From Bifidobacteriaceae bacterium (GTDB taxonomy: Bacteria > Actinomycetota > Actinomycetes > Actinomycetales > WQXJ01): a stretch of DNA of 13,693 bases. The stretch lies in the NCBI GenBank assembly GCA_031272565.1, contig JAISTN010000213.1, forward strand, positions 1-13,693, given 5' to 3'. The position numbers and the translations under genes are program-made. The stretch's first letter is position 1. Each line of letters opens with the position of its first letter. Positions 1 to 13,693 of the stretch are shown here, piece by piece. The notes below the pieces were generated by a model that saw nothing but the letters and a program-made list of their open reading frames with translations, was not told the origin of the DNA and made no database searches.

Positions 1-684
1 GGCCGAGGCGCCCCGCTCACCCAACAGCGGGTTGTCCACGTCGCAGGCCACCTGGACCGATACTTGAGCCCAGCGCGGGTCCAGGCCCGTGGTGTCGATC
101 CGGTCCAGGCCGGCCAGGGCGGCCCCTCCCGGCCCCAAATCCCAGCCCGATTTGTCCAACAGGCGCACCCCCAGCGCCTGGGCCAACCCGGCTCCACCGT
201 CGTTGGTGGCAGTGCCGCCCAAGCCCAGCACAATCCGCTCCGCCCCGGCCTGCAGCGCCGCCGCCATCAACTCCCCCACCCCAAAGGTGGAGGCCCGTAG
301 CACGTCGCGGGCGGCATCGGGCACCAAGTCCAAGCCGGCGGCGCTGGCAGATTCGATCACCGCCAGCCGGTCCTGTTCCACCCAGCCAAAGCCGGCCGTC
401 ACCGACAGGCCCAAGGGGCCGCGCACCTTGACTTCCCGCCAGACGCCCCCCAGGGCGGCGGCCAAAATCGAGGCCAAGCCCTCACCGCCGTCAGACATGG
501 GCAACGGCACGCACTGCGCTTCTGGCAAGACTTGCCGCACGCCCCGCCCCATGGCGGCGGCCGCCAAGGGAGCCGTCATTGAACCCTTGAAGGAATCCGG
601 CGCCAGCACCACCCGGGGGCCCTTCGGCGCGGGCACGGCCGTCGCTGGCTCCGGCCTTGCACCACGGCGGGATTTGCGGGCCAT
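1..684 (-). CDS. glxK: Glycerate kinase, GlxK/GarK family (partial, C-terminus outside window)
   Basis: ATP-dependent kinase that converts D-glycerate to 2- or 3-phosphoglycerate and so feeds glyoxylate-derived carbon into glycolysis. The 228 visible codons run from ATG at 684 to the left edge with no stop; family members are about 370-400 residues, so roughly 40% is missing. Visible family motifs are APDSFKGS (residues 28-35), SDGGEG (64-69), ESASAAGL (111-118) and GLGGTATNDGGAG (154-166). The N-terminus is about 20 residues longer than usual (basic, then Ala/Pro-rich), so a later start is possible; no strong ribosome site precedes 684. It is separated from the ureide operon by the repeat array, so it probably has its own promoter. 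In E. coli, glxK sits in the allantoin regulon, which fits allB in this window. Whether it is the 2- or 3-kinase type cannot be told. Confidence 0.93.
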   Translation of the reverse strand, partial: MARKSRRGARPEPATAVPAPKGPRVVLAPDSFKGSMTAPLAAAAMGRGVRQVLPEAQCVPLPMSDGGEGLASILAAALGGVWREVKVRGPLGLSVTAGFGWVEQDRLAVIESASAAGLDLVPDAARDVLRASTFGVGELMAAALQAGAERIVLGLGGTATNDGGAGLAQALGVRLLDKSGWDLGPGGAALAGLDRIDTTGLDPRWAQVSVQVACDVDNPLLGERGASA

Positions 685-726
685 CAGGATCAACCTATCG
701 CTCAGGGGGCAAGTAACGCGGCCCAA

Positions 727-750: not shown

Positions 751-860
751 GGGGACGCCAGCCAGTGCCCCACCAGCCTGGCGATCACTCGCGGGCGTCC
801 GGTGCGCCCAGGTCAAGCCGGGTCACCGACACCGCCCCCACCAGCCCCACAGCCACAGTC

Positions 861-1134
861 GCCATCGGGCAGCCCGGAGAGACTTCCCGCAGTCCGGAAG
901 CCGCCGTGGACACAAGCGGAGAGACTTCCGGTAGTCCAGCGAGCGCCATCGGGCATTCCGGAGAGACTTCCGGCAGTTCTGGACCCCTCCAGAACGGTGC
1001 GGAGAGACTTCCGGTAGTTTTTCCGGTTCAGAAGTGCAGCAACTCTCTCCGCAATGGCCGATGGCGGCGTGTCGACTACCACAAGTCTCTCCGCATGGGT
1101 TGAGTGTCGCTCCTGGACCACCATAAGTCTCTCC
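861..1134. repeat. Convergent array of seven 18-bp repeats on a 42-bp period
   Basis: The unit is GGAGAGACTTCCGGTAGT. Plus-strand copies are at 876-893, 918-935, 960-977 and 1001-1018; minus-strand copies at 1033-1050, 1075-1092 and 1117-1134. Starts (or ends, on the minus side) step by 42, 42, 41 and 42, 42 bp. The two blocks mirror each other about position 1026, so the region can form a long imperfect hairpin or cruciform. Alternate units are preceded by a shared spacer element, GCCATCGGGCA on the plus side (861-871, 945-955) and its counterpart ATGGCCGATGGCGG on the minus side (after units 5 and 7), giving an 84-bp higher-order repeat. A CRISPR is excluded because the spacers are related and the orientation flips. 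Function unknown; 42 bp is close to four DNA turns. Confidence 0.85.
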
Positions 1135-1191
1135 GCAATGGCCGATGGCGGCGGTAGACCAACCACCTTGCCCTGCCCACGGACAGACTCG

Positions 1192-2094
1192 TCACCCGGG
1201 CCCCGTCCCCGCACCACCCGCCGTCAGGTGGTGGGCGGCGATCTCACCGGCGGTAGCCAGCCAGACGCGGTCCCTCAGGCCCGCCAGACGCTCGAACACC
1301 GCTTCCAGGGCCCGCAACCGGAACGGCGCCCCGGAAATGAAGGTGTGCAGCACCAGGTTCATCACCAGCGGCCCTTCCACTTGGGCGGCGGCCAGCAGTT
1401 CATCCAATTCGTCCAGCACCATGCGGGCAAAGGCGTGGGCCTCCACGCGCCGGCCAATCATGGTGGTTGAATCGTTCAACTCGACCCCGTATGGCAACGC
1501 CAGCAGCCCGCCCGCCAACTCGACCGGGCGGTCATCGGCCCTCAGCCCCAGCAGGTAACGGAAGCCGGCCGCCGCCAGCAACTCAAGGCTCCACGGGTTC
1601 AGCTCCAGCCAGGGGCTGGACCAACCCAGCGCCGGCGCCCCTTCCTCCTGGAGCATCCGGTCCGCCACTGCCTGGATGTACAAGGCTTCCTCAGCCCGGC
1701 TGAGGCCATAGACCGAATCGGAGTTCGACACACCATGCGCCACCAGTTCAGCACCGGCTGCCCGGGCCGCCGCCACCAGCCCCGAGGCGGTGTCATACGC
1801 CATTGTGTTCAGCAGCACGGTGGGCGGCAGCCCGTACCGCCGCAGCCGCTCCAACAACCGGAAACCGCCCACCCGGTTGCCATAGTCACGCCACGAGGCG
1901 TTGACGTAGGCCGCGCCGGGGCCGCCCTCTAGCACGTCCTCGACCCGGCCCTCGCCAAAGCGGTAGTCCTCTACTCCCACACAGACATACAGCGCCAGCT
2001 TGGCGCCGTTGGGCCAGGCGGCGTAACCCGGCCCGGCCGGCCGGCCATCGGCTTTCCCCGCAGGCTCACCCCACGGCAATCCCGTCACAGTCAC
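1192..2094 (-). CDS. PuuE-like allantoinase / polysaccharide-deacetylase (NodB-fold) family hydrolase
   Basis: Predicted cytoplasmic hydrolase of the NodB fold, in the branch that includes PuuE allantoinase. Colinear PuuE landmarks (numbered from a GTG at 2106): WPNGAKLALYVCVGVED (31-47), the DYGNRVGGFRLLERL block (74-88) matching YGSRxGxWR, LVAHGVSNS (121-129) matching IAsHGwrW, LPYGVELND (204-212) matching iPYtLDxND, and LVLHTFISGAP (near 250-260) matching the GLHxRxxGRP block. About 300 residues is normal for the family. Start: the GTG at 2106 lies upstream of a strong GGGAGG, so the real start is more likely GTG 2094 (4-base spacer) or GTG 2088 (10-base spacer). It begins just after the amidohydrolase stop and is the last gene of the operon. 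It probably opens a ureide or amide bond. True allantoinase activity is uncertain, because several PuuE residues differ and AllB is also present. Confidence 0.8.
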   Translation of the reverse strand: MTVTGLPWGEPAGKADGRPAGPGYAAWPNGAKLALYVCVGVEDYRFGEGRVEDVLEGGPGAAYVNASWRDYGNRVGGFRLLERLRRYGLPPTVLLNTMAYDTASGLVAAARAAGAELVAHGVSNSDSVYGLSRAEEALYIQAVADRMLQEEGAPALGWSSPWLELNPWSLELLAAAGFRYLLGLRADDRPVELAGGLLALPYGVELNDSTTMIGRRVEAHAFARMVLDELDELLAAAQVEGPLVMNLVLHTFISGAPFRLRALEAVFERLAGLRDRVWLATAGEIAAHHLTAGGAGTGPG

Positions 2095-2109
2095 AGTTCC
2101 TCCCACTTG

Positions 2110-3657
2110 TCAGTTCCCTACCCACCGGCTGAAGCCCACGTCGTAGGCGGCGGCCCGCCGCACCATCTCCAGGTAGTACGGGTAAACCCGCTGCGCCGCC
2201 TGCCCCGCCGCTTGCAGCGCGGCCGCCCGCCCGGCAAACAACTCCCTGGCCTCCGCCAACAAGGCGGCCTCATCCACCAGCGTCAACCGGCCTTCGCGGG
2301 CCACCACGTCACCCGCCACCATGGTCAGCCGCACCGACGAGCCGTCCTCGCAATAGACCAGTTGACCAGGCAGATCGTTCAACGGGGTGAACGGCAAGGT
2401 GTTCAAGTCAAGCAGCACCAGGTCCGCCCACGCACCAACCCGCACCACACCCAACTCGCCTGCCTGCAGCGAAGCCCGGGCCCCGCCCTCGAACAGGCAG
2501 CGCAGCACCTCGCGCGCACCGGGCCACTGGTCTGGGTCCAGTCCGCCGATGTTGTGGATCAGCCCAGCCAGCTTAGCCACCGTCCACAAGTTGACCGCGT
2601 CATCGGTGATGGCCTCGTCGCTGCCCAACGCCACTGGCACACCGGCCCGCCGCAGCCGCCTAAACGGCATCACGCCGCTGCCCAGCCGCAGGTTGGACAC
2701 AGGATTGTGTACCACGCAGGCCCCGGCCGCCGCGATCAGTTCAATGTCCGCATCGTCCACCCAGACGGCGTGGATCACATTGGTATGCCGGTCTAGGAAG
2801 CCCAGGTCGTGGGTGTAGCGGACCAGCGACCGCCCGGCAAACCGCGGCTGGGCATCCGCCAGTACCCGCTGGGTCTTGGTTTCCAGCATGTGGGCAAACA
2901 GCGGCAGGTCATGGGCCTGGCTGAGCGCGAACAGGTCGCCAAAGTACTCCGGGCTGACCCGCTGCGGGGCGGACACGGACACCGCCGCGGTCAGCCGGCC
3001 GCCTGCCGCCCCGTGCCAAGTCTCAATCAGATGGCGGTTCAGGTCCGCCATCGCGGCCCGCCCCGCCGCCGGCGGCCGGGACAAGCGTTCCCGCAGCCAA
3101 GCGGGCGCCAGGTCCTCCAGGAACGGCAACTTCTGGCCCTCCGGCAACTCCGGTTGGTCGATGGCGACCCGGGCCCGCAACCCGGCGTCGCGGTAGGCGG
3201 ACATGACGGCGTCGACGATTTCGCTGGTGGGCGCCGGTACAAAGAAGGCATCATCCTGCACCGCGGTGACGCCCCGGCGCAGCATCTCGATGGCGCCCAA
3301 CATGGTGCGCAGATAGGCCTCGCGGGGGCTGGGAGCCAGCTCGGGCAGCTCGGGTGATTCGTACAGCATGAATAGTTCAAGCGGCAGCGACGGCAGCAGG
3401 CCTTTCATGTGGTTGGCGGAGGAATGGAAGTGGGCGTTGATCAGGCCGGGGGCCAGCAGGTGGTGCCCAGCGCCTTCGATCACCTGAGCTCCAGCCGGTG
3501 CCTTGACCGGCCGGCCGGGCTCTCCAACCTGGGCGATCCGCCCGTCCGCCACCAACACGTCGGTGGGCTGGCTGGCCCCGGCAGCCAGGGCCAGATCGAA
3601 CACCCGGACCTGCCGGAACAAGGTGGGCCGGCCGGGTTGCGCCGCCACGTCAACCAT
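2110..3657 (-). CDS. Metal-dependent amidohydrolase, TrzA/MtaD/SsnA-like (deaminase or ureide hydrolase)
   Basis: Amidohydrolase-superfamily protein of about 515 residues with the layout of chlorohydrolase/MTA-SAH deaminase-type enzymes. Counted from the ATG at 3657: a small N-terminal beta domain (VRVFD, VLVADGRI), metal ligands in NAHFHS (H76, H78), H256 followed by catalytic E259 in AHMLET, H296 in IHAVW, the HNPVSNLRLGSG block (about 317-328), and metal-binding D347 in LGSDEAITDDA. The C-terminus returns to the beta domain (GAWADLVLLDL). Such enzymes deaminate ring amidines or release amide-linked groups; the substrate cannot be read here. Start choice: TTG 3690 and ATG 3684 are possible, but ATG 3657 follows a purine-rich GGGGGCGGA and gives a family-like N-terminus; it overlaps the kinase stop by 8 bases, implying translational coupling. 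It is cotranscribed with transporter, kinase and hydrolase genes, so its product is likely intracellular and catabolic. Confidence 0.85.
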   Translation of the reverse strand: MVDVAAQPGRPTLFRQVRVFDLALAAGASQPTDVLVADGRIAQVGEPGRPVKAPAGAQVIEGAGHHLLAPGLINAHFHSSANHMKGLLPSLPLELFMLYESPELPELAPSPREAYLRTMLGAIEMLRRGVTAVQDDAFFVPAPTSEIVDAVMSAYRDAGLRARVAIDQPELPEGQKLPFLEDLAPAWLRERLSRPPAAGRAAMADLNRHLIETWHGAAGGRLTAAVSVSAPQRVSPEYFGDLFALSQAHDLPLFAHMLETKTQRVLADAQPRFAGRSLVRYTHDLGFLDRHTNVIHAVWVDDADIELIAAAGACVVHNPVSNLRLGSGVMPFRRLRRAGVPVALGSDEAITDDAVNLWTVAKLAGLIHNIGGLDPDQWPGAREVLRCLFEGGARASLQAGELGVVRVGAWADLVLLDLNTLPFTPLNDLPGQLVYCEDGSSVRLTMVAGDVVAREGRLTLVDEAALLAEARELFAGRAAALQAAGQAAQRVYPYYLEMVRRAAAYDVGFSRWVGN

Positions 3658-4564
3658 CCGTCCGCCCCCATTCGGCCAAGTCATCTTCAACTTGCTGCCG
3701 GGTCAGGCCGGTCATCGCTTCGACCCCGAAACCGCCGATGGCGCACGATGCCGCCACCGCGCCCGCCCTTGCCGCCTGCACCGCGTCGCCGGTCCGGTGG
3801 TGCACCGCCGCGAAGGCGCCGCAGAAGGCATCCCCGGCACCGGTCGAATCGACCACCACCGCCGGCCGGGCCGGCACCTGGGTCAGGCTGTCATCCGCCC
3901 GCTGGTAGACCAGGCAGCCGGCGCCGGCTCGTTTGATGACCACCACGGAGGGTCCCCAGTGGGCGAACTCGCGCGCCGCGGCGGCCAGGTCCCGGTGGCC
4001 CAACAGCCGCCAGACCTCTTCTTCGCTGGGCAGGAAGACATCGCTCAGGCGGACCATCTCCGCCACCTCGGCATGGTGACCATAAATATAGTCTTCCTGC
4101 AAGTCCAGGTAGACCGTCCGCCCACCACCGCCCGGCAGGGCCTGCGCGCAGGCCAACTGCGGCGCCAGTGCCATGGCCAGGAACAACACCGCGGGCGCCG
4201 CCACGGCGTCCGCGTCCAGGTCCGCCGGCCACACCGACATGGCCTCGAAATGCGCCTCACCGTGCCACAGGTCCCACACCCTTGAGCCGTCCGCCAGGTA
4301 GGTGACGGTGTTACGGATGTTGGGTCGGTCGCGCCGCAGGAAGCCAGCCAGAGCCAGCCCCGCCCGCTCCAGCGCCGCCGCCGCCGGCGGCGGCAAGTCA
4401 GACCCCAGGGGCGCCAACAGCCGCACCTGCGGCTCGAACAACCGGGCCGCCAGGCCGGCGTAGATGACATCCCCACCCAGGCAGGCGTTGCGCCGCGTGC
4501 CGTCTGGCAACACGGCATCGTCCACCGTGATGTTGCCAATGCACAGCAAAGCGGTATGGGTCAT
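3650..4564 (-). CDS. PfkB-family carbohydrate kinase (FrlD-like position)
   Basis: Ribokinase/PfkB-fold kinase of 304 residues that would phosphorylate a sugar, sugar-amine or nucleoside-like substrate with ATP. Visible signatures: an N-terminal GNITVDD strand, GGDVIYAGLAARL (30-42) as the substrate-binding first PfkB motif, LPSEEE (179-184) replacing the usual NxxE metal-site region, and DSTGAGDAF (239-247) with the catalytic base Asp245 and anion hole. ATG 4564 is chosen over 4585 because it places the family core close to the N-terminus and starts 3 bases after the upstream stop. The gene overlaps the next one (amidohydrolase) by 8 bases. Beside a SIS-domain gene and an ABC importer the arrangement recalls frl and fra operons, where FrlD/FraD phosphorylates Amadori compounds before deglycation. 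That role here is inferred from neighbours; a nucleoside kinase is the main alternative. Confidence 0.88.
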   Translation of the reverse strand: MTHTALLCIGNITVDDAVLPDGTRRNACLGGDVIYAGLAARLFEPQVRLLAPLGSDLPPPAAAALERAGLALAGFLRRDRPNIRNTVTYLADGSRVWDLWHGEAHFEAMSVWPADLDADAVAAPAVLFLAMALAPQLACAQALPGGGGRTVYLDLQEDYIYGHHAEVAEMVRLSDVFLPSEEEVWRLLGHRDLAAAAREFAHWGPSVVVIKRAGAGCLVYQRADDSLTQVPARPAVVVDSTGAGDAFCGAFAAVHHRTGDAVQAARAGAVAASCAIGGFGVEAMTGLTRQQVEDDLAEWGRTDG

Positions 4565-4566
4565 GG

Positions 4567-5793
4567 CTACCGGCCCGCCTCCCATTCGGCCGCCGCTCGC
4601 CCGGCCACCGCCCGTTCCGCGGCCTCGCGCTCCGCGGCCCGGAACTTGGCCATCGCCACGTGGTAGCCAAACAGTTGGACCGGCACCACATAAGCCAGTG
4701 GGCTCAGCACCTCCGGCACGGCCGGCAGTTGCAACACGGCATCGGCCACGCCGTCAAAGCAACCCACGCCCTGGCTGGTCACCACGTAGGCCCGCCCGCC
4801 GTAACGTTGGGCCTCCCGGACCGTGTCCAGGGCGCGCGGCACGGTTCGCCCTGCCGGGGCGATTACCCAGAGTGGTTCGCCGGCCTTCAGGGAGTTGTAG
4901 TGGTGGAACTCTTCGATCTGCAGCGCCTGGGCGTGGCTGGGTGAACACTCCCTGATCTTGGCCGCTCCAATCACGGCGCACGGCCAGTTGGGCCCACCGC
5001 CGGCGAAGACAAACTCGTCCCCCGGGGCCTCGCGTTCGGCGATCTGGGCCACCACCGGTTCCACCTGGGCAATCACGTCACCCATCACGCCCGGCAGGCT
5101 GTCCAGCACACCGTCTAAGCCGGCCAGCGCCTCCACCCCACGCGCCTGCCCCACCGCCAGCGCCAACCGCTGCAGCAGCGCCAAAGCCGCGGTCGAGGCC
5201 TGCGTGGGCCAACCCACCCGCGTCGCCTCGATCAGCAAGGTGTCTTCACATTCGGTGTCCAGCGGCGAACCGGGCGAGTTGGTCAGGGCCAGCGTGACGG
5301 CCCCCCGGCGCTGCGCCACCAGGGCTGCCTCCACCGTCCGGGTAGTGCGGCCGGAACTGGACAAGGCCATCACCAGGGTCTGGGAGTCGATCAGGTGGTC
5401 CAGGTAGTAGGCCAGGTCCAGGCTCTGGACCGGTTCGCAGGGCACCCCCAGGGCCAGTTCCAACAGTTGCCGGGCCGCCTGCATCACGGCCAGCGAATCC
5501 CCCGCCCCGGCCAAGAAAGCCTTGGTCACACCGGCCGCCGCCAACCGCTTGGCCACACCCGGCAACGAAGCCTCATTCCGGGCCCAGGTCGCCTGGATGG
5601 CGGCCGGCTGGGCCACCAGCTCGTCCCGGGTCACCTCGGTCCGGTAGCGGCGCTTGGGATCCAGCGGGTCATCCGTGGGCAGTTCCAGGATCTTGGCGTA
5701 TTCCTCCTGGGCCACCTGCGCTATCACCTGGCGCTGGCGTGGGTCCAGGGCGCTGCCCGGCGCCAGCAGCGGCGTCAGCGGGTAGTCGGTCAT
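4567..5793 (-). CDS. Two-SIS-domain sugar-phosphate isomerase/deglycase-like protein (GlmS/FrlB/AgaS type)
   Basis: Cytoplasmic protein of 408 residues with two SIS domains. Domain 1 (about 60-215) shows TRDELVAQP (55-63), like the T-x-EI-x-QP entry of GlmS/AgaS, then LAGAGDS (94-100), the phosphate-binding SSSGRTTRTVEAAL (145-158) and ASTAALALLQ (199-208). Domain 2 (about 255-385) shows GAAKIRECSPSHAQA (276-290) and EEFHHYNSL (294-302), the counterpart of the GlmS ELKHGP active site with its His kept. There is no glutaminase domain, so it is not GlmS itself. FrlB-like deglycases cleave 6-phosphorylated fructosamines to glucose 6-phosphate and an amine, AgaS-like enzymes deaminate/isomerise galactosamine 6-phosphate; either would work with the adjacent PfkB kinase. 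The tail (384-408) is Ala/Glu/Arg-rich. AGGAG lies 9 bases before the ATG. The extra N-terminal 50 residues lengthen it compared with FrlB. Confidence 0.85.
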   Translation of the reverse strand: MTDYPLTPLLAPGSALDPRQRQVIAQVAQEEYAKILELPTDDPLDPKRRYRTEVTRDELVAQPAAIQATWARNEASLPGVAKRLAAAGVTKAFLAGAGDSLAVMQAARQLLELALGVPCEPVQSLDLAYYLDHLIDSQTLVMALSSSGRTTRTVEAALVAQRRGAVTLALTNSPGSPLDTECEDTLLIEATRVGWPTQASTAALALLQRLALAVGQARGVEALAGLDGVLDSLPGVMGDVIAQVEPVVAQIAEREAPGDEFVFAGGGPNWPCAVIGAAKIRECSPSHAQALQIEEFHHYNSLKAGEPLWVIAPAGRTVPRALDTVREAQRYGGRAYVVTSQGVGCFDGVADAVLQLPAVPEVLSPLAYVVPVQLFGYHVAMAKFRAAEREAAERAVAGRAAAEWEAGR

Positions 5794-5847
5794 GGTAGGG
5801 CACTCCTGTCGGTTGGGTCTGGCGTCATCTCACAGGCAGGGCCAGGT

Positions 5848-6720
5848 TCAGGTGCTCACGATGGCGTCCTCACCGGCCACCCGCAGGCCCACCACAATGA
5901 TGGTTAGGGTAGCCAAGACCTGCACCGTGGCGACGGCCGCCACCACGGGGTCAAGGTCGTAGCGCATCAGGAAGAACAGGTGCACCGGCAGTGTCATGTC
6001 CCCCACCGGAGTCAGGAACAGCGACACGGTCAGGTTGTCAAAGCTGGACAGGAAGGCGAAGGCCGCCCCGGCCACGATGCCGGGCGCCAGATAGGGCAGT
6101 TGGATGCGGCCAAACACCACCAGGCGGGAGGCCCCCAAGTTGCGGGCGGCTTCTTCCAGGGCGATGTCCGCCCGTTCCATTCTGGACATGGTGATGCGCA
6201 GCACAAAGGGGAAGGTCAGCACCACGTGGCCCAACACCAGCATGCCCAGCGACAGGTCGATCCCGATGGTTGAGATGAAGATCAGCAGGGCAATCCCGAT
6301 CACAATGCCGGGCAGCATCAGGGGGATCTGCAAGAAGGCCAACAGGAAGGACTTGCCGGCAAACTCGCGCCGCACAAAGGCGATGGCGGCCGGCACCGCC
6401 AGCACCACATCCAGCAGTACGGCGGCCACCGCCACCGACAGGCTGGTGACGGCGGCGTCGATGATCGCCTGGTCGTGCACCAGCCGGTCAAACCGCTCCA
6501 GCGCGAAGCCGGCCGGCGGGAAGCCGATGAAGTTCCTGGTGTCAAACGACGTGATGATGATGATCAGGGTGGGGACCACCAACATGATCAGGCCAATCGC
6601 GGCCACCCCGTGCAAAATGATGCGCCAGCCCGCATCGGCCGCCCGGGTGCGGGGCGCCGGCGGCACTCCGCCCGGCGCGCCGCCCACGGCGCCCCGTTCT
6701 AGTTGATCTGCCTGGACCAT
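5848..6720 (-). CDS. ABC transporter permease, PotC-like
   Basis: Inner-membrane permease of 290 residues in the spermidine/putrescine (PotC) branch of ABC importers. Hydrophobic segments are visible near residues 33-57, 90-115, 126-150, 158-176, 210-228 and 260-279. The cytoplasmic EAA loop that contacts the ATPase reads EEAARNLGAS...LPYLAPGI (189-215). The first 30 residues are a soluble Ala/Pro/Gly-rich extension. The ATG at 6720 has AGGAGG 8 bases upstream and overlaps the end of the other permease gene by 22 bases. Downstream, 54 bases separate it from the SIS gene, with no terminator seen. PotC-type importers also carry opines and other amino-compounds, so polyamines need not be the substrate. 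Confidence 0.92.
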   Translation of the reverse strand: MVQADQLERGAVGGAPGGVPPAPRTRAADAGWRIILHGVAAIGLIMLVVPTLIIIITSFDTRNFIGFPPAGFALERFDRLVHDQAIIDAAVTSLSVAVAAVLLDVVLAVPAAIAFVRREFAGKSFLLAFLQIPLMLPGIVIGIALLIFISTIGIDLSLGMLVLGHVVLTFPFVLRITMSRMERADIALEEAARNLGASRLVVFGRIQLPYLAPGIVAGAAFAFLSSFDNLTVSLFLTPVGDMTLPVHLFFLMRYDLDPVVAAVATVQVLATLTIIVVGLRVAGEDAIVST

Positions 6721-7604
6721 CGGGTCAACCTCCTCACCACCAGGTTGAGGATCACCACGGTCAACAGGGAACTGGCCAGCAGCAAGGCGGCCGCCGCCGC
6801 GCCCCGGCCCCAGTCCAGCAGCGAGGTCATCGAATCGTAAATGTAGATCGACAGGTAGTTGAAGGAGCCGCCGCCCAGCAGCATGGCCAACGTGAACTCG
6901 CTGTAGCCCAGCGCGAACACCAGGGTGATGCCGGCGGCGGCCCCGGGCACGGTTTGGGGGATCAGCACCCGCCAGAAGATCCGGAACTCGCTGGCACCCA
7001 GGTTGCGGGCGGCGTGGGTAGTTTCGGCTGGCACGTCCTGGATGGCGCTGATCAGCGGTATGACCATGAACGGCAGCAGCAACTGGGTCATGCCGATCAC
7101 CACGGACCGGACCTGGAACAACAGGCTGACCGGCTCGTCGACCAGCCCGGTGGAGGTCAGCGCGAAGTTGACCAGGCCCTGTTTGCCCAGAATCACAATC
7201 CAGGCGAAGGCCCGGATGATCCCGCTGGTCAGCAGCGGCGCCGCCACCGCCACCAGGATGACGGCCCGCAGCCAGCCGTGCACCCGGGTGATTAGGAAGG
7301 CGATGGGATAGCCGATCACCAGGCAGAGCAGCGTCACGCCCAGGGCGATGGCGAAGGTCCGGCCAAACAGGAACCAGAAGTAGCGGCTGGACAGCAGGCG
7401 GCCAAAGGTGGCGAACGAGATGCCGCCTTCCACCGCGGCGCCGTTCACCTCCAGGACGGAATATGACAGCAGCACGGCCAGGGGCGCCACCAGCAGGATG
7501 ATCATCATGATGGTGGCCGGCAGCAGTGGCGCCGGGATGGCCCGGAAGCGGCGCCGTTCCGGTTCGATCAGGCTGGCGTCTAGGGCACCGCCGGCGGCCG
7601 TCAT
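6699..7604 (-). CDS. ABC transporter permease, PotB-like
   Basis: Inner-membrane permease of 301 residues, partner of the PotC-like protein. Membrane segments are visible near 27-50, 81-105, 113-140, 164-188, 222-245 and 268-290. The EAA loop is HAARNLGASEFRIFWRVLIP (197-216), with the conserved Gly at the usual place. The gene begins with ATG overlapping the TGA of the ATPase gene by 3 bases, and ends inside the next permease gene, so the three are translationally coupled. It forms the heterodimeric channel through which the substrate delivered by the lipoprotein enters the cell. Confidence 0.92.
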   Translation of the reverse strand: MTAAGGALDASLIEPERRRFRAIPAPLLPATIMMIILLVAPLAVLLSYSVLEVNGAAVEGGISFATFGRLLSSRYFWFLFGRTFAIALGVTLLCLVIGYPIAFLITRVHGWLRAVILVAVAAPLLTSGIIRAFAWIVILGKQGLVNFALTSTGLVDEPVSLLFQVRSVVIGMTQLLLPFMVIPLISAIQDVPAETTHAARNLGASEFRIFWRVLIPQTVPGAAAGITLVFALGYSEFTLAMLLGGGSFNYLSIYIYDSMTSLLDWGRGAAAAALLLASSLLTVVILNLVVRRLTRWSRQIN

Positions 7605-8782
7605 GACGCCCCCACCCGCGAGTCAGCCGGGGCCGGGATGAGCCATTCGGCCGCCGCCTCGTTCAACGCCACCCGCACCGGGGTACCCACCGCCAGCAGA
7701 CCTTCGCTGCGCCCTCGCGGCACCCGCACGGTCAGTTGAGGACCGTCTGCTACGTCCACGCCATAGATGAAGGCCTCGCCCAGGTCCTGGAAGGTTGCCA
7801 CCGTGCCGGGCAGGCCAGCCGTGGCGGTGGCCGGCAGCAACTCCAGGTGGTCCGGCCGGACCAGCAGCGTCCGTTCGCCCGCCGTACCGCCTTCACGGTG
7901 CCCGATGCCGCTGGTGGCCGCGCGGCCCCCGGCAGCTTCCGGCGGCTCAGCCCCGTCAGCCAACCCGGCCGCCCCGCGAGCGGCATCGGCCCTCAGCGGC
8001 AGGCTGTGGGGACCAAACCGGAACTGTGCCCCGCCGGCGGCGCCCCCCGGTACCACCTGGCCCTTGATCAGGTTGGACCGCCCAATGAAACTGGCCACGA
8101 ACTCGCTGCTGGGGTGGTCGTAGACCTCGCCGGGCGTGTCGTATTGGGCGATGGTGCCGCGGTCCATCACCGCGATCCGGTCCGACATGGTCAGGGCTTC
8201 TTCCTGATCATGGGTCACAAACATGGTGGTGATACCCACCTCGGCGATCAGCCGGGCCAGTTCCAACTGCATCTGGATGCGCAGTTGGCGGTCTAAGGCG
8301 GACAACGGTTCGTCCAACAGCAGCACCTTCGGTTCGATCGCCAAGATGCGCGCCAGGGCCACCCGTTGCTGCTGGCCGCCGGAAAGCTGCTTGGGGTAGC
8401 GGCCGGCATACTCGCTCATGGAGACCAGGTCCAGCATCCGCTCGACCTGTTCGGCCAAGCGGCGCTTGGACAGCCGGCGGACCTTGAGGCCAAAGGCCAC
8501 GTTCTGGGCCACCGTCATGTGCGGGAACAGGGCATAGCTCTGGAACAGCAGGCCCACCTCGCGCCGGTTGGCCGGCCGGTCGGTGATGTCCGTGTCACCC
8601 AGGTAGACCCGGCCCTGGTTGGGGGTGACAAAGCCGGCGATGATCCTGAGCAGGGTGGTCTTGCCGCACCCGGAAGGTCCCAACAGCGTGACGAATTCGC
8701 CTTCCTTGACGGTCAGGTCCAGCGGGTACAACGCCGGCTGGTCACCGTAGGACTTGGCGACCCCGGTCAGCACAATCTCCAT
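7601..8782 (-). CDS. ABC transporter ATP-binding protein, PotA-like
   Basis: Cytoplasmic ATPase of 393 residues energising the Pot-type importer. Walker A is GPSGCGKTT (35-43), Q-loop in LLFQSYALFP (78-87), signature LSGGQQQR (133-140), Walker B VLLLDEP (153-159), D-loop SALD (161-164) and switch His191. A C-terminal TOBE-like regulatory domain follows (about 235-380), with GRSNLIKGQV and LLVRPDHLEL as landmarks. Residues about 264-303 form an Ala/Gly-rich, low-complexity insertion between TOBE strands; the DNA under it carries two inverted copies of a word also found next to gntR. AAGGAG lies 8 bases before the ATG. The gene overlaps the permease start. The 128-base gap upstream holds a strong hairpin that may lower expression relative to the binding protein. 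Confidence 0.95.
   Translation of the reverse strand: MEIVLTGVAKSYGDQPALYPLDLTVKEGEFVTLLGPSGCGKTTLLRIIAGFVTPNQGRVYLGDTDITDRPANRREVGLLFQSYALFPHMTVAQNVAFGLKVRRLSKRRLAEQVERMLDLVSMSEYAGRYPKQLSGGQQQRVALARILAIEPKVLLLDEPLSALDRQLRIQMQLELARLIAEVGITTMFVTHDQEEALTMSDRIAVMDRGTIAQYDTPGEVYDHPSSEFVASFIGRSNLIKGQVVPGGAAGGAQFRFGPHSLPLRADAARGAAGLADGAEPPEAAGGRAATSGIGHREGGTAGERTLLVRPDHLELLPATATAGLPGTVATFQDLGEAFIYGVDVADGPQLTVRVPRGRSEGLLAVGTPVRVALNEAAAEWLIPAPADSRVGAS
7897..7989. repeat. Inverted pair of a dispersed 12-16 bp word inside the PotA insertion
   Basis: GGTGCCCGATGCCGCT (7897-7912) is identical to 10142-10157 beside gntR; GCGAGCGGCATCGG (7976-7989) is identical to the reverse complement of 10147-10160. 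The two copies face each other and coincide with the low-complexity segment of the ATPase. Further 12-base copies of TGCCCGATGCCG (either strand) are at 312-323, 11736-11747 and 11812-11823. This looks like a REP-like palindromic family, though part of it may reflect codon bias. Confidence 0.5.
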
Positions 8783-8820
8783 CAGGCTGCTCCTTAGCCC
8801 AGCTCCATTGCCGCACCACC

Positions 8821-8878
8821 GGCCGGCCCGCCCGCCTGGCCCTGGTCAGTCACCCGCGAACCCGGCGGGCGGACGGCC
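8821..8878 (-). other. Intra-operon hairpin between binding-protein and ATPase genes
   Basis: Left arm GGCCGGCCCGCCCGCC (8821-8836) and right arm GGCGGGCGGACGGCC (8864-8878) pair over about 14-15 bp with one mismatch or bulge and a 27-base loop. No T-run follows in the direction of transcription, so a full intrinsic terminator is unlikely. In ABC-importer operons such a hairpin after the binding-protein gene commonly protects that part of the mRNA or attenuates downstream genes, giving excess binding protein. This role is inferred from position and structure. Confidence 0.6.
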
Positions 8879-8910
8879 AGCAAGTCAGGGCCAGTCGAGT
8901 TGTGGCCGGT

Positions 8911-9945
8911 TCAGCCGCCAAACCGCTGGTTGAACTGGTCGGTGATGTCGTTGCGGCTGGGGGCCGCCACCTGCCAGTCGATTCGCATCAGGGTGTTGAA
9001 CTCGGCTTCATCCGACACCAGGTATTCGGACGCCGCCACGGTGGCGTTCTTGTTGGTGGGGCCGAAGTACCACGGCGCGGCCGCGGCCGCTTCCTGGTAG
9101 GTCACTCCGCCCACGTCGTTCAGCAGTTCCAGTGTCAGGTCCTTGTAGGCCGTCGTGGTGGTCATGGCCATGCAGGTGACGTCCGCGATGGCGCCCTCGG
9201 ATGGCCGCACAAACTCGACGCTCATGCCGGATTCCTTCAGCACGGCGGCGTCGTTGTTCCACAGCGGCGCGATGGCGATTTCGCCGGTCTCGAAGAGTTG
9301 GGCCAGGGCCTCCGGGCTGCCGGCCACGGTGAAGTCGCCCAGTTCGGCAATCTTGTCGAAGCCCACGTCCAGGTTGGCCTCGCTGCCACCGGCCAGTTTG
9401 GCGGCCTCGACAAAGAAGGCGAACCCCAGGTTGGAGGAGGATGACACAATGCCGACGTGGCCGGAGTATTCCTCGTTCCACATGTCGGCCCAAGAGGTGG
9501 GCGCCGGCACCACGTCCGGGTTGTAGGCGATGCCGATCAGCGAGTAGGTGGCCGGCACGCCGTAGCCTTGGCAGGCGTCCTTGAAGATGTCGGCCTGTTC
9601 GGCCAGCACGGGGGCATCGGCTTCGGTGATGGGGGCGATCCAGCCTTCTTCGATGGCCGTCACCAGGCGGGATTCGCCCAGCGGGATGGCGTCGTAGGGG
9701 CTGGCATTGGCGGCGGCCTTGATTTGGGCCACAAAGTCGCCGGATTCGGAGGGCACCTGGGTCAGTTCGACGCCCTTGTGCTTCTCCAGGAAGGGCTTGA
9801 TGAGGAACTCTTCGTAGGGCTTGGCCAGGTCGCCGCCGTAGCCGATCATGACCATCTTGGCATCTTCGCCGCCGCCGCAGGCGCTCAGCGCCAGAAGCGC
9901 GACCAACCCACCGGACACGGCCGCCATCACAGGCTTGTGCTTCAT
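8911..9945 (-). CDS. PotD-like ABC transporter substrate-binding lipoprotein
   Basis: Extracytoplasmic binding protein of 344 residues, anchored by lipid. The signal peptide has a basic start (MKHKP), a hydrophobic core (7-20) and the lipobox LSAC with acylated Cys23, followed by a Gly-rich linker. The mature part resembles PotD/type-2 periplasmic binding proteins: MIGYGGDLAKPYEEFLIKPF (33-52), a mid-domain with SLIGIAYNPDVV and SWADMWNEEYSGHVGI, and a terminal lobe with the PLWNNDAAV segment. The family binds polyamines, opines or other cationic or amine-bearing solutes; the actual ligand cannot be read. AAGGA lies 8 bases before the ATG. It is the first gene of the long operon, directly downstream of the operator-bearing promoter region, and is followed by a hairpin. 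Confidence 0.93.
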   Translation of the reverse strand: MKHKPVMAAVSGGLVALLALSACGGGEDAKMVMIGYGGDLAKPYEEFLIKPFLEKHKGVELTQVPSESGDFVAQIKAAANASPYDAIPLGESRLVTAIEEGWIAPITEADAPVLAEQADIFKDACQGYGVPATYSLIGIAYNPDVVPAPTSWADMWNEEYSGHVGIVSSSSNLGFAFFVEAAKLAGGSEANLDVGFDKIAELGDFTVAGSPEALAQLFETGEIAIAPLWNNDAAVLKESGMSVEFVRPSEGAIADVTCMAMTTTTAYKDLTLELLNDVGGVTYQEAAAAAPWYFGPTNKNATVAASEYLVSDEAEFNTLMRIDWQVAAPSRNDITDQFNQRFGG

Positions 9946-9996: not shown

Positions 9997-10006
9997 TGGT
10001 ATACAG
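9997..10006. promoter_or_regulatory. GntR operator site 1 (TGGTATACAG)
   Basis: Near-palindrome with the GTATAC core at 9999-10004, matching the FadR/GntR scheme TNGT-N(x)-ACNA. It lies about 12 bp downstream of the proposed -10 of the transport operon, where a bound repressor would block start or early elongation. It is one of six such sites in the window, all in control regions. Confidence 0.7.
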
Positions 10007-10105: not shown

Positions 10106-10115
10106 TGGTATACAA
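10106..10115. promoter_or_regulatory. GntR operator site 2 (TGGTATACAA)
   Basis: GTATAC core at 10108-10113 with TNGT/ACNA half-sites. It lies 109 bp centre to centre from site 1, so the pair could form a repression loop. The following bases (GGGTTTCGCC) resemble those after site 5 (GTGTTTCGCC), suggesting that longer sequence around the boxes was copied. Confidence 0.68.
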
Positions 10116-10160: not shown

Positions 10161-10814
10161 TCAGCCGCCAAACATGGCGCTGACCGTGGGGGCCAGGGAC
10201 TTGGCGATGTGGGCATACTGAACTGCCTCCGCCAAGCGGGCATTGCCGCTCTGGATGACCTGCAGCAACTCGTCATGTTCGGCCCAGGCCTCGTCCTGGT
10301 CCAGGTCGGACGTGAGATAGAACAGCCACACCACCCGCCCGGAGATGGCACGCAGGAACGACTCCATCAGGGCGTTACCGGTCAGCACGCCAATCTCGTA
10401 GTGCAACAACGCGGAGGCCTCGGCCACGCCGTACGGATCATGACCGGCCAGGGCATTGCGATCCGCTTCCTGCAAGGACCATAAGGTCGCCATGGACGCC
10501 CCCGCCTTGGCTCTCTCGGCCGCGATCCGGGCCGCCGCCACCTCCACCGCTAGGCGGACGTCAAACAAGTCGTCCACCATCTTGGGGGTCCAGGTTTCCA
10601 CCACCGCGCCCCGGTTGCGCTCAGTCCGGATGAAGCCGTCCAGCTCCAGGCGTGGAAAGACCTCGCGCAGGGGCACCCGCGACACCTCCAGCTCATCGGC
10701 CACGGCCTGTTCCACCAGCCGCGAACCCTGCGGGTACACCCCCTTGATGATCCGTTGGCGGATTTCGCCGTAGACCCAATCCGGCAGGCTGCCTCTGGGG
10801 TCACCGTTGGTCAT
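10161..10814 (-). CDS. GntR-family transcriptional regulator, FadR subfamily (FCD domain)
   Basis: DNA-binding regulator of 217 residues, the likely controller of all surrounding genes. The winged helix-turn-helix occupies about 11-75 (VYGEIRQRIIKGVYPQGSRL, then VADELEVSRVPLREVFPRLE and a wing with RNRGAVV). The all-helical FCD ligand domain spans about 80-210. Three of the usual metal/ligand residues are visible (H138 in ALLHYE, H180 in AEHDELL, H202 in YAHI), with the family's 22-residue spacing between the last two; the usual Asp four residues before the first His is Ser134. ATG overlaps the racemase stop as ATGA, with AAGGAG 7-8 bases upstream, so both are coexpressed. FadR-type proteins bind TNGT-N-ACNA palindromes, matching the six GTATAC sites in the two flanking control regions. 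Effector unknown; a ureide or pathway intermediate is plausible. Confidence 0.93.
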   Translation of the reverse strand: MTNGDPRGSLPDWVYGEIRQRIIKGVYPQGSRLVEQAVADELEVSRVPLREVFPRLELDGFIRTERNRGAVVETWTPKMVDDLFDVRLAVEVAAARIAAERAKAGASMATLWSLQEADRNALAGHDPYGVAEASALLHYEIGVLTGNALMESFLRAISGRVVWLFYLTSDLDQDEAWAEHDELLQVIQSGNARLAEAVQYAHIAKSLAPTVSAMFGG

Positions 10815-11557
10815 CGACTTGCTCCTTCGCCCATCTGAGCACTGACCGGCCAGCCTGGCCGGGCCTTGTCCGCCGCCGGCGGCGCGTAGGCGCCCACCTT
10901 GGAGGTTGTCTGCCCCAGCCTGACCAAGCCTTCCGCCTGCGTCACGGCCGCCGCCACGCCATCAATCACCGGCACCCCCAACTTGGCCGCCACCGGCTGA
11001 ACCAGGTCGCTGAAGCCGGCACAGCCCAAGACTATGACATCCGCCCCGGCCTGAAGCAGGCCCTGCGCCAAGCCCGCCCCGGCGGCCGCCGTTGGCTCCG
11101 GGCCTAAGCCTTGGTCAACCATGGGCAGATCGCCGGCCACCACCCCGGCACAGCGCCGGTCCAGCCCGGCCGTCAGCAGCGAGTCTTCGATTTGCCCGAT
11201 GGCGCCCGCCGGCGTGGTCACCACCCCGTACTTGCGGCCCAACAGCAGGGCGGTCATTACGGCCGCCTCAGTGATGTCCACTACCGGCACGGTCAACAGT
11301 TGCCGGGCGCCCTCGCGCCCGTATTCGCCAAAGCCGGCCAGGATCACCGCGTCGATACCGCCGGGCAGGCCAGTCAGGTAGTCCAAGCCGGCGGCGGCGG
11401 AGATGTATGACTCATAGAAGCCTTCCACCGTGTCGGGCCCCCAGGCCGGCCGGGCAGCCACGATGGTGGTGCCGGGGCTGGCCACCGCCTGGGCGGCGGC
11501 CCCGATGGCCTCAGTCATGGCTAGCGACGTGTTGCAGTTCAGTACCAACAAGCGCAC
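10811..11557 (-). CDS. Asp/Glu/hydantoin racemase-family protein with one catalytic Cys missing
   Basis: Cytoplasmic protein of 248 residues in the hydantoin/allantoin racemase (HyuA/HpxA) family. The family N-terminus INPNTS appears as LNCNTS (residues 6-11), with Cys8 in place of Pro. The first catalytic Cys, normally in an A-C-F motif, is Gly75 (AGF; codon GGC at 11333-11335). The second is kept as Cys179 in VLGCAGFSDL. The spacing of 104 residues matches the family (Cys76/Cys181 in HyuA), so the alignment is secure. VPVVDITEAA (91-100) is another family block. The GTG at 11557 is chosen because AGGAG lies 7 bases upstream and the core strand starts at once; the ATG at 11632 adds 25 unrelated residues. 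A Gly/one-Cys site is what arylmalonate decarboxylase has, so racemase activity is doubtful; decarboxylase or other proton-transfer chemistry is possible. Overlaps gntR. Confidence 0.87.
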   Translation of the reverse strand: MRLLVLNCNTSLAMTEAIGAAAQAVASPGTTIVAARPAWGPDTVEGFYESYISAAAGLDYLTGLPGGIDAVILAGFGEYGREGARQLLTVPVVDITEAAVMTALLLGRKYGVVTTPAGAIGQIEDSLLTAGLDRRCAGVVAGDLPMVDQGLGPEPTAAAGAGLAQGLLQAGADVIVLGCAGFSDLVQPVAAKLGVPVIDGVAAAVTQAEGLVRLGQTTSKVGAYAPPAADKARPGWPVSAQMGEGASR

Positions 11558-11644
11558 GTGTAGGCTCCTGACTGACCCGCTGGTTGGCCGTTGGGACCGC
11601 CCGGGATGGCCGGAGCAGGTCATGGCCTCCATCCCGCCGGACCA

Positions 11645-11654
11645 TTGTATACAC
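11645..11654. promoter_or_regulatory. GntR operator site 3 (TTGTATACAC)
   Basis: GTATAC core at 11647-11652. On the minus strand the site reads GTGTATACAA followed by T, so it also contains TATACA/TACAAT, a possible -10 box for the racemase-gntR transcript. It lies about 90 bases upstream of the racemase GTG. A site here would give autoregulation of gntR. Confidence 0.68.
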
Positions 11655-11707: not shown

Positions 11708-11717
11708 TTGTATACAA
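11708..11717. promoter_or_regulatory. GntR operator site 4 (TTGTATACAA)
   Basis: Perfect 10-bp palindrome, 63 bp centre to centre from site 3, i.e. about six helical turns, so both would face the same side of the DNA. It is the best match to the FadR-type TNGT..ACNA scheme in the window. Confidence 0.72.
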
Positions 11718-11895: not shown

Positions 11896-11905
11896 GTGTA
11901 TACAC
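11896..11905. promoter_or_regulatory. GntR operator site 5 (GTGTATACAC)
   Basis: Perfect 10-bp palindrome about 45 bp upstream of the proposed allB -35 box, identical to site 6. The spacing of 78 bp to site 6 would allow DNA looping by a dimeric repressor. Confidence 0.7.
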
Positions 11906-11949: not shown

Positions 11950-11977
11950 TTGCATAGCGAAAAATCTGGAGTAGTGT
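11950..11977 (+). promoter_or_regulatory. Candidate promoter of allB
   Basis: TTGCAT (11950-11955) and TAGTGT (11972-11977) at 16-bp spacing fit a -35/-10 pair with an actinobacterial TANNNT -10. Operator 6 (11974-11983) overlaps the -10, so GntR binding would shut the promoter directly. Predicted start near 11985 gives a leader of about 75 bases before the allB ATG. Confidence 0.5.
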
Positions 11978-12060: not shown

Positions 12061-13464
12061 ATGACGCTCAACGGGTTTTCAACCGGCCCCACGCCGGGGG
12101 CCGCCCCCGGCCTGCGCTACGACCTGATCGTGCGAACCCAAGCCCTCGTCACGCCGGACGGTGTCCTGCCCGGCGCCATCGCCATCAAGGACGGCGTCAT
12201 TCAGGCCATCTTGCCTCCGGGCACCCCCGCCCCCGCCATGCAGGCCACCCAAACCATCACCACCGCGCCAGATGAAGTGGTCCTGCCCGGCCTGGTCGAC
12301 GCCCACATCCACGTCAACGAACCAGGGCGCACCCACTGGGAGGGCTTCGCCAGCGCCACCAAGGCGGCCGCCGCCGGGGGCTTCACCACCATCCTTGACA
12401 TGCCCCTCAACTCGCTGCCCCCCACCACCACGGTGGCCAACCTGCGCGCCAAGCGGCAGGCTTCAGACGGCCAGCGCTACATCGACGTGGGCTTCTGGGG
12501 CGGCGCCGTACCCGGCAACCAAGAGGACCTGGAGACACTCCACCAGGCCGGCGTGTTTGGCTTCAAGGCATTCATGGCCGGCTCCGGGGTGGACGAGTTC
12601 TGCCACCTGACAGCACCACAGCTACGCCAGGCCGCCACCGAACTGGCCCGCCTGGGGGCGCAACTGATCGTCCACGCCGAAAGCCAGGACGTGCTGGAAG
12701 CTCACCAAGTCGCCACCGCCCCGCACTACGCCGACTTCCTGGCCTCTCGCCCGCCCCAGGCAGAGGTCGAGGCGATCAGCCAAGTGATCGACATCGTGCG
12801 TCAAACCGGCGTCAAGGCCCACATTCTGCACCTATCCGCCGCCGCTGCCCTGCCGCTGATCCGCCAAGCCAAGGCGGACGGCCTACCGCTGACGGCGGAA
12901 ACCTGTCCCCACTACATCACCTTCGCGGCGGAGGAAATCCCGGACGGCGCTCCGGAATACAAGTGCTGCCCACCCATCCGCGACCGGGCCAACCGCGACC
13001 AACTGATCCAAGCCCTGCTTGACGGCACCATCGACTACCTCGCCTCCGACCACTCGCCGTGCGAACCCAAGTTGAAGGAACCAGGCCGGCAAGACCTGAT
13101 GCAAGCCTGGGGCGGCATCGCCTCGGTCCAGTTGATGGCCAGCGCCGCCTGGACTGCCACCCGCCCGCACGGTGCCAACCTGACCCACCTGGCGGCCTGG
13201 CTGGCGGCCAACCCGGCGCGGCAACTCGGCATCGGCTCTAAGGGCCGCCTGGCCCCCGGCCACCAGGCCGACCTGGTGGTCTTCGCCCCAGACCAGGCCT
13301 TCACGGTCGACCCATCCGCCCTGCACCACCGTTGGCCCATCACCCCCTACGCCGGCAGGACCCTGCAGGGCGCGGTCCGGGCCACCTACCTGCGCGGCCA
13401 ACCAGCCGGCCAAGACCCCAACCTAGGCCAACTGATCACCCACCAACCGGCCCCCACATCGTAA
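12061..13464 (+). CDS. allB: Allantoinase (AllB, dihydroorotase-like amidohydrolase)
   Basis: Cytoplasmic zinc hydrolase that opens the hydantoin ring of allantoin to allantoate. It is 467 residues, close to E. coli AllB (about 453), with an extra Gly/Pro-rich N-terminus of some 17 residues. Landmarks: DAHIHVNEPGRTHWEGF (80-96) with metal ligands His82 and His84; DMPLNSLPPTT (113-123), a strong AllB mark; carboxylated Lys169 in GFKAFMA; His205 in VHAES; His257 in LHLS; CPHY (282-285); KCCPPIRDR (301-309); Asp330 in ASDHSPC; MQAWGGIASVQ (347-357); and the TPYAGRT end motif. AAGGAG lies 6-7 bases before the ATG. It is transcribed divergently from the gntR unit and 27 bases ahead of a carbamoyltransferase. 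Dihydroorotase or hydantoinase activity is less likely, since EPGRxHWEG and MPLNxxP are typical of allantoinase. Confidence 0.93.
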   Translation: MTLNGFSTGPTPGAAPGLRYDLIVRTQALVTPDGVLPGAIAIKDGVIQAILPPGTPAPAMQATQTITTAPDEVVLPGLVDAHIHVNEPGRTHWEGFASATKAAAAGGFTTILDMPLNSLPPTTTVANLRAKRQASDGQRYIDVGFWGGAVPGNQEDLETLHQAGVFGFKAFMAGSGVDEFCHLTAPQLRQAATELARLGAQLIVHAESQDVLEAHQVATAPHYADFLASRPPQAEVEAISQVIDIVRQTGVKAHILHLSAAAALPLIRQAKADGLPLTAETCPHYITFAAEEIPDGAPEYKCCPPIRDRANRDQLIQALLDGTIDYLASDHSPCEPKLKEPGRQDLMQAWGGIASVQLMASAAWTATRPHGANLTHLAAWLAANPARQLGIGSKGRLAPGHQADLVVFAPDQAFTVDPSALHHRWPITPYAGRTLQGAVRATYLRGQPAGQDPNLGQLITHQPAPTS

Positions 13465-13491: not shown

Positions 13492-13693
13492 ATGGCCACC
13501 ACTGCACCGGTCCGCACCATCGCCCAGCAGATCAACCAGATCGGCTTCACCGGCCGGTCGCTGATTTCCATCTCAGATCTATCGGATGACCAGCTCTATG
13601 GCCTGTTCGAACTAGCCCGGACCATCGAACCATGGAACCGGTCCAAGGTTGAACTGTTCCCCGGCGCCATCCTGGGCCTGCTGTTCTTCCAGC
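13492..13693 (+). CDS. Aspartate/ornithine carbamoyltransferase-family protein (partial, N-terminus only)
   Basis: The first 67 codons are visible; the gene runs off the right edge. The segment SLISISDLSDDQLYGLFELA (23-42) matches the helix that opens the carbamoyl-phosphate domain, and GAILGLLFFQ (58-67) is the strand that leads into the STRTR carbamoyl-phosphate motif, just outside the window. The roughly 22 residues before the domain are longer than in most PyrB and recall the YgeW-type paralogues found in purine-ureide clusters. AAGGAG (13477-13482) lies 9 bases before ATG 13492. Placed right after allB, it may work in the catabolic direction, passing a carbamoyl group from a ureido product to phosphate. 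A pyrimidine-synthesis PyrB cannot be excluded from this fragment. Confidence 0.8.
   Translation, partial: MATTAPVRTIAQQINQIGFTGRSLISISDLSDDQLYGLFELARTIEPWNRSKVELFPGAILGLLFFQ

Follow-up and report, generated by a model that had tools for sequence, protein, structure and literature searches.

The DNA analysed here is contig C319 of a Bifidobacteriaceae assembly with an estimated completeness of 69.5%; the window in what follows is this whole contig of 13,693 bases. It carries a row of genes for a Pot-type ATP-binding cassette (ABC) importer, a two-SIS-domain protein, a PfkB-family kinase, a TrzA-like aminohydrolase and a PuuE-like hydrolase. We propose, with confidence evenly balanced for and against, that this PotDABC-SIS-PfkB-TrzA-PuuE module acts as the front end in the catabolism of a nitrogen heterocycle linked to a sugar, namely a cyclic amidine/guanidine or a cyclic ureide. 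As the system combines a kinase and a GlmS-like C-N enzyme for a sugar with a deaminase, a racemase and a ring-opening hydrolase for a ring, a conjugate of the two is the simplest single explanation. Such a pathway would join two logics usually studied apart, the phosphorylation and deglycation of sugar amines and the opening of purine and ureide rings, and would imply a common natural sugar-linked ureide-type nutrient that is unnamed in the open literature searched.

An earlier, sequence-only reading of this DNA had described the kinase and SIS genes as a fructosamine-type pair embedded in a ureide-degradation regulon. The genes it listed and their neighbours are confirmed to be present and their arrangement is real: across 3650..9945 the PfkB, SIS, PotC, PotB, PotA and solute-binding protein (SBP) genes are all intact open reading frames (ORFs), with Pfam or NCBIfam support for each except PotB, which was left out of the scans. 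The kinase gene overlaps that of the SIS protein by 19 bases and that of TrzA by at most 41 bases, and 3 bases separate TrzA from PuuE, making the proposed sharing of a single operon with the two hydrolases plausible. The general idea of a sugar conjugate stood, whereas the fructosamine label did not.

Conservation of the gene set

A scan with the SIS protein, taking one genome per species, yielded 116 relatives, from which 80 loci were retained; partner counts are hence conditional on the SIS gene, the grouping into actinobacterial and other loci was made by hand from record titles, and the automatic ORF starts are crude. At lenient thresholds, these 80 loci contain PfkB-like (72), TrzA-like (64) and PuuE-like (59) genes and HyuA-type racemases (54). 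At strict thresholds, PfkB, TrzA, PuuE and the HyuA-type racemase accompany the SIS gene in 28 of the 29 full-length actinobacterial loci, the exception being L077. Of all 51 full-length loci, 49 have PfkB immediately downstream of SIS, 46 a TrzA-like (COG0402-type) match of at least 30 bits and 45 a PuuE/AllB match of at least 40 bits. The carriers are spread over actinobacteria, alphaproteobacteria and a few other phyla, and include named isolates such as Rhizobium sp. BK313 and Frondihabitans sp. Leaf304.

A control independent of the SIS scan, and the co-occurrence check that the sequence-only reading had called for, consisted of four separate searches of 248 genomes of the order (E limits of 1e-90 for TrzA, 1e-60 for SIS, 1e-40 for PuuE and 1e-30 for PfkB): orthologues of all four were recovered in the identical five genomes. 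Three of the five belong to one genus, so that they amount to about three independent cases. This identity of the five genomes, together with the recurrence of the gene set in other phyla, argues for more than chance association. The earlier claim of a set conserved together elsewhere is therefore upheld for the PfkB-SIS-TrzA-PuuE core only, which is the widely conserved part. AllB and the carbamoyltransferase were considered as further core members and rejected: AllB-like genes occur in 5 of the 80 loci, and AllB is separate from the module in each of the four further module genomes. Its presence in all five module genomes is weak support, since it is also found in 100 of the 248 genomes overall. 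No paper on the gene set was found in the open PMC literature among the matches listed, where few subscription papers are covered, and publication remains possible.

The SIS protein and the kinase

The 408-residue SIS protein consists of SIS domains only, with no N-terminal glutaminase domain, and its 126 bits against the GlmS profile TIGR01135 (cut-off 418) place it outside that family. It has the two-SIS fold with catalytic Glu and His seen in FrlB and FraB, the pair being aligned between FrlB and the window protein, and its residues also align with the catalytic Glu, His and Lys of GlmS; the C-terminal K603 of GlmS is without an equivalent in the alignment. The predicted model is nearest to the GlmS isomerase fold and next to amino-sugar-phosphate enzymes. 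In the tree, which took 31 of the 80 loci and in which several reference rows are long branches, the window clade lies across a 98/97 branch from FrlB and FrlB-like proteins (4 rows), GlmS (5) and AgaS (1). It thus differs from the GlmS isomerase domain and from NagB-II/AgaS in clade as well as in the missing glutaminase domain and K603. The kinase tree (26 of the 80 loci) separates the PfkB clade from FrlD with support of 100/99 and does not group it with Gsk or PsuK; against the curated FrlD profile the kinase scores 19 bits (cut-off 247). The comparison with FrlB, AgaS, FrlD and nucleoside kinases that the sequence-only reading had suggested hence returned separate clades for both proteins, and with the SIS model nearest GlmS the fructosamine-type family label was rejected. 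The kinase and the SIS protein fall into paired subfamilies for which we found no characterised member.

These placements bear on an Amadori (fructosamine) pathway, in which PfkB would form a 6-phosphofructosamine, the SIS protein would deglycate it like FrlB/FraB, and TrzA and PuuE would process the released amine. The FrlABCD and FraBDAE systems of fructosamine catabolism share with the module an importer, a PfkB kinase and a two-SIS enzyme, the protein superfamilies are identical, the Glu/His pair is aligned in FrlB and the SIS protein, and a general acid and base are common to FrlB and FraB (excerpt of PMC9609667). A Rhizobium plasmid (L133) moreover combines a Pot importer with an FrlB-like SIS protein and a PfkB kinase. 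Set against this are the separate clades of both module proteins, GlmS as the nearest fold, and the additional TrzA, racemase and PuuE partners, and we regard the Amadori pathway as improbable.

Homologues of the SIS protein in one alignment (the window and 33 of 120 matches listed out of 635, from a protein search that scored a capped set of 8000 candidates) are 53-69% identical to it (n=33). On plasmids, 306 records match it, all below 60% identity, with a glmS annotation on 27 among the 40 matches listed. Variations on the pair include a head-to-tail array of four SIS ORFs (one end-cut) and three PfkB ORFs in an Anaerolineales locus (L102:2-7646), and a diverged second two-SIS protein (SIS2) that adjoins the module in 13 of the 80 loci, mostly of alphaproteobacteria (e.g. 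L079:8800-9978). The plasmid row of L133, from Rhizobium brockwellii, comprises a Pot-type importer, an MmgE/PrpD protein, the FrlB-like SIS protein and PfkB, and may be an opine/Amadori operon that shares its importer type with the window.

Aminohydrolase, ring-opening hydrolases and racemase

The TrzA-like protein has the HxH, HxxE, H and D set of the TrzA/MtaD (COG0402) aminohydrolases, with H87, H89, H267, E270, H307 and D358 conserved to at least 93% over the 50 rows of the alignment; this is the metal and proton-shuttle residue set of TM0936. Its relatives in PDB include 3lnp, 4f0r and 7ww2, and no specific NCBIfam enzyme is above its cut-off among the best 25 of 30 families. The PuuE-like hydrolase matches PuuE itself (PDB 3cl6, E 3e-15) and falls below the PuuE allantoinase profile (Table 1); H124, G125, N128 and S129 are conserved in 47 of 47 aligned rows each and D130 in 44, and there is no HxxxH motif at the conserved His.

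The window racemase is closest to a solved allantoin racemase, 5lfd. In it, Gly replaces the first Cys and is followed by Glu three positions later (AGFGE), a combination that Cendron in 2016 reportedly described as the hallmark of allantoin racemases. It was accordingly rejected as an orthologue of the racemase of the conserved operons, which is of the two-Cys HyuA type: CFGD/CFSD and GC.G motifs are present in 50 of 52 related rows (the window and its C343 copy, described below, excluded), the exceptions being L106 and one of two in L096. AllB passes the general allantoinase profile and lies under the stricter NF004839 (443 vs 631) and NF005960 (311 vs 688). Beyond it, the 67 residues of a carbamoyltransferase that the window holds match an intact gene downstream of AllB in a congener, G001 (111 bits). 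A cut glycerate kinase gene at the other end of the contig was absent from the earlier reading.

The two-Cys racemase of most loci and the ring-opening hydrolases recall hydantoin utilisation by Hyu racemase and hydantoinase, from which the module differs by its PuuE-like hydrolase and by its link with a sugar kinase and a SIS enzyme.

Paired GTATAC sites and the ureide regulon

The window contains six copies of the palindrome GTATAC where 0.32 would be expected, a count reached in 0 of 200 shuffles, and all six sit as pairs in three gaps, ahead of PotD, the racemase and AllB. Within the 2.27 Mb assembly, pairs with starts 56-116 bases apart are found in the window (three) and on contig C343 (two) only, and a reversed control pattern gave no pairs anywhere in it. 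C343 (L123; 10,779 bases) is a second copy of the racemase-GntR-Pot-SIS-PfkB-TrzA-PuuE row whose DNA is about 90% identical; it carries two of the three pairs plus a lone site at its end and reflects either a strain mixture in the bin or a true duplication. The shared pairs support the earlier proposal of one regulon comprising the module, AllB, the racemase and the carbamoyltransferase. Judged from site placement, the window regulator, which has both GntR and FCD domains, probably binds GTATAC.

The start of the module could be inspected for GTATAC in 81 loci, namely G091, G130 and 79 of the 80, L083 being too short to count. A site lies near the first gene (BtpA or SIS) in 40 of them, where base composition predicts 3.2 sites. 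These 40 comprise 36 of the 40 actinobacterial loci, 2 of the 39 others, and both G091 and G130; the module promoter of Frondihabitans sp. Leaf304 is among those that carry the site. A GntR homologue is present in 34 of 41 actinobacterial loci, whereas a DeoR-type regulator gene is found in 20 of 39 non-actinobacterial loci and none of the 41. By the rule used, L047, L049, L097 and L099 are the actinobacterial loci missing the operator, with GTATAC nearby in all but L099. The commonest letters around the site in site-bearing loci are AAACGGTATACCGTTT-like; exact CGGTATACCG occurs once in G091, at the module start, and with one mismatch is too loose to inform in five genomes. These operator-like sites offer a handle for induction screens.

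The congener G001, 95% complete, has a GTATAC pair 79 bases apart ahead of its AllB and, at the thresholds applied, no match to SIS, TrzA, PuuE, PfkB or PotD; at this completeness the absence of the module is likely, not certain. Downstream of AllB it encodes the ATCase-like (aspartate-carbamoyltransferase-like) protein (202 bits, cut-off 236.95) and carbamate kinase (348, NF009007 cut-off 266) and, further on, a hydroxypyruvate-isomerase-like protein (220, cut-off 353), tartronate semialdehyde reductase (349.8, cut-off 340.75) and glyoxylate carboligase, Gcl (977, cut-off 711). Since this operon and its pair exist without the module, the ureide regulon seems to be independent, with the module appearing as an addition. 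AllB and glycerate kinase resemble the E. coli allantoin regulon, in which AllB and GlxK are linked (excerpt of PMC10163214), and the likeness extends to the carbamate kinase, tartronate semialdehyde reductase and Gcl of G001. The window differs in its GntR/FCD regulator and GTATAC pairs, which apparently control a sugar module as well, and in an ATCase-like carbamoyltransferase instead of AllFGH (excerpt of PMC11326118).

The AllB operon of G001, with its pair and no module, also favours an alternative in which one regulator governs two separate nitrogen-scavenging functions, amino-sugar use (importer, PfkB, SIS) and cyclic-amide use (TrzA, PuuE, AllB), with no conjugate. The proximity of the SIS protein to GlmS, and next to amino-sugar-phosphate enzymes, points the same way. 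Such a split nevertheless sits poorly with the strict co-inheritance of SIS, PfkB, TrzA and PuuE in the same 5 of 248 genomes and with the gene order kept across phyla, and no N-acetyl-amino-sugar gene such as NagA came up among the families scanned, though no search aimed at these was made. We consider it improbable.

Importers and ureide-type neighbours in other loci

The window PotD is 41-45% identical to SIS-adjacent SBPs in the alphaproteobacterial module loci L116, L104 and L103, and at E <= 1e-15 none of the other 21 genomes among the 22 searched has a match to it. Besides the window, 11 of 39 non-actinobacterial loci have a Pot-type importer; a DppA-type binding protein is present in 35 of 41 actinobacterial ones.

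Independent associations of SIS with ureide genes in other phyla favour the proposed sugar-linked heterocycle, as do the cyanuric acid amidohydrolase genes described below and the kinship of the window PotD with the alphaproteobacterial SBPs. In L112, an Anaerolineales locus, BtpA and two SIS genes stand beside ureidoglycine aminohydrolase and two AllB genes, over their TIGR cut-offs, along with racemase-fold proteins and an enzyme of the TrzA type. Two AllB genes of L092 (Oscillospiraceae) likewise exceed the TIGR cut-off, and a dihydropyrimidinase in L106 exceeds its own. Against the AllB cut-off of 357.85, the AllB-like protein of L066 scores 359.3, level with it, and that of L088 339.4, below it. 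In L090:4611-9070 and L086:4149-7871 a cyanuric acid amidohydrolase (over cut-off), a flavin-dependent (FAD) monooxygenase and an AtzE-like amidase lie just upstream of SIS on the same strand, the monooxygenase being weakly like the urate hydroxylase HpxO (88.6 and 67.7 bits, cut-off 500). A Bmp/PnrA-type importer gene is near the SIS gene in both, and members of its cluster adjoin SIS in 5 loci, with the Bmp domain PF02608 tested on L084 only and the other members assigned by clustering.

A BtpA/SgcQ-family gene (PF03437) is found ahead of or near SIS in 35 of the 80 loci (e.g. L039:9170-9955), its product having no PDB sequence match up to E 0.1; its position beside SIS is a clue to BtpA function. 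A label of RpiR-like for this gene of about 260 codons ahead of SIS was rejected in favour of BtpA/SgcQ.

Several of these neighbours accord with a nucleoside-like scheme, in which a ribosylated ureide or oxidised purine nucleoside would be imported and phosphorylated by PfkB, and its sugar removed by the SIS protein and/or BtpA before ring opening. The Bmp/PnrA-type importers, the cyanuric acid amidohydrolase and weakly HpxO-like monooxygenase near SIS, and the frequent BtpA gene fit it, as does the resemblance of TrzA to 5'-deoxyadenosine and 8-oxoguanine deaminases, under their cut-offs. It is weakened by the position of PfkB apart from Gsk and PsuK and by the nearest solved enzymes to the SIS protein, which by their structure titles act on hexose 6-phosphates. 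There is no BtpA match on C343 and no assigned window gene is BtpA; nor did a nucleosidase come up among the families scanned, although no search aimed at nucleosidases was made. Taken together, this scheme is unlikely.

A proposed pathway

For a sugar-linked nitrogen heterocycle as the substrate, the conjugate would be taken up by the ABC importer and its sugar phosphorylated by PfkB. The Glu/His pair of the GlmS-like SIS protein would open the phosphosugar and the sugar C-N bond would be broken, giving a sugar phosphate and a free amino-heterocycle. TrzA would hydrolyse the exocyclic C-N (amidine) bond to yield a cyclic ureide, to be epimerised by a racemase, which is of the HyuA type in most loci and of the allantoin-racemase type in the window, and opened by the PuuE-like or AllB-like hydrolases. 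The ureide pathway could then deliver carbamoyl phosphate and glyoxylate, the latter passing via glycerate to glycerate kinase. In the window, GntR at the paired GTATAC sites would drive the module, the racemase and AllB-carbamoyltransferase jointly. The data show the genes and their conservation, the operator-like pairs, the retained residues and the predicted fold; we infer each reaction, their order, the substrate and the binding of GTATAC by GntR. The overall scheme, in which uptake and phosphorylation precede C-N cleavage and ring opening, was already outlined in the sequence-only reading and is consistent with the conserved catalytic residues.

Several observations weigh against this proposal. 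Strict partner counts are much lower in the 22 full-length non-actinobacterial loci (PfkB 15, TrzA 9, PuuE 7, racemase 7), and five of the 51 full-length loci are without a TrzA-like match (L074, L077, L080, L084, L090). Importer types vary by lineage (Dpp, Pot, Bmp/PnrA, SBP_bac_3, NMT1), so a single shared substrate is not assured. With TrzA and PuuE both under the curated cut-offs of the families compared, their chemistry is known by family only. Finally, in the other four module genomes there is no GTATAC in the 10-12 kb around AllB, which makes the wiring of AllB special to the window's genome among the five.

A more specific and very doubtful version holds that the module and its variants use sugar-bearing purine oxidation products, e.g. 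hydantoin, iminoallantoin and cyanuric-acid nucleosides, which arise from oxidised guanosine. This would explain the kinase and sugar-removing enzyme beside an 8-oxoguanine-type deaminase, hydantoin/allantoin racemases and allantoinases, as well as the ureidoglycine aminohydrolase, cyanuric acid amidohydrolase and nucleoside-type importers across lineages and the allantoin-regulon wiring in the window.

Gene map of the window

The minus-strand genes are transcribed in the order racemase, GntR/FCD, PotD, PotA, PotB, PotC, SIS, PfkB, TrzA and PuuE, followed by a gap and the glycerate kinase gene; AllB and the start of the carbamoyltransferase gene are divergent from this cluster (Table 1).

Table 1. 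Genes and operator-like sites of the window
Feature	Position	Strand	Evidence and remarks
Glycerate kinase (GlxK type), contig-end cut	1..726	-	TIGR00045 261.7 bits vs cut-off 168.45; start codon uncertain
PuuE-like hydrolase, polysaccharide-deacetylase fold	1192..2106	-	TIGR03212 73.1 bits, under cut-off 424.6
TrzA/COG0402-type aminohydrolase, deaminase residue set	2110..3690	-	Best NCBIfam NF004701 201 bits, under cut-off 609
PfkB-family sugar kinase, subfamily of its own	3650..4585	-	PF00294; tree; TGAGD motif, D252
Two-SIS GlmS-like putative phosphosugar C-N enzyme, new subfamily, no glutaminase domain	4567..5793	-	
PotC-type permease	5848..6720	-	NF007047 147 bits, under cut-off 326; PF00528
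PotB-type permease	6699..7604	-	Intact ORF; matches SIS-adjacent ORFs in other loci; left out of profile scans
PotA-type ATPase with TOBE domain	7601..8782	-	PF00005, PF08402; NF006987 342 bits, under cut-off 482
PotD-type SBP	8911..9945	-	PF13416
GntR/FCD regulator, presumed GTATAC binder	10161..10814	-	PF00392, PF07729
Allantoin-racemase-like protein	10811..11632	-	PDB 5lfd E 7.7e-59; AGFGE and LGCAG motifs
Allantoinase AllB	about 12061..13464	+	TIGR03178 544.2 bits vs cut-off 357.85; start set by eye
Start of aspartate-carbamoyltransferase-like gene, contig-end cut	13492..13692	+	NF006046 weak, 18.6 bits over 67 aa
GTATAC pair (operator-like palindrome) ahead of PotD operon	9999..10004 and 10108-10113	.	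109 bases apart
GTATAC pair ahead of racemase-GntR	11647..11652 and 11710-11715	.	63 bases apart
GTATAC pair ahead of AllB	11898..11903 and 11976-11981	.	78 bases apart

The gap between the glycerate kinase and PuuE genes (window 860-1153) contains four copies of a 20-base GCGGAGAGACTTCCGGTAGT-like repeat at steps of 41-42 bases, followed by inverted copies at 42-base steps, the two 131-base arms being 73% complementary.

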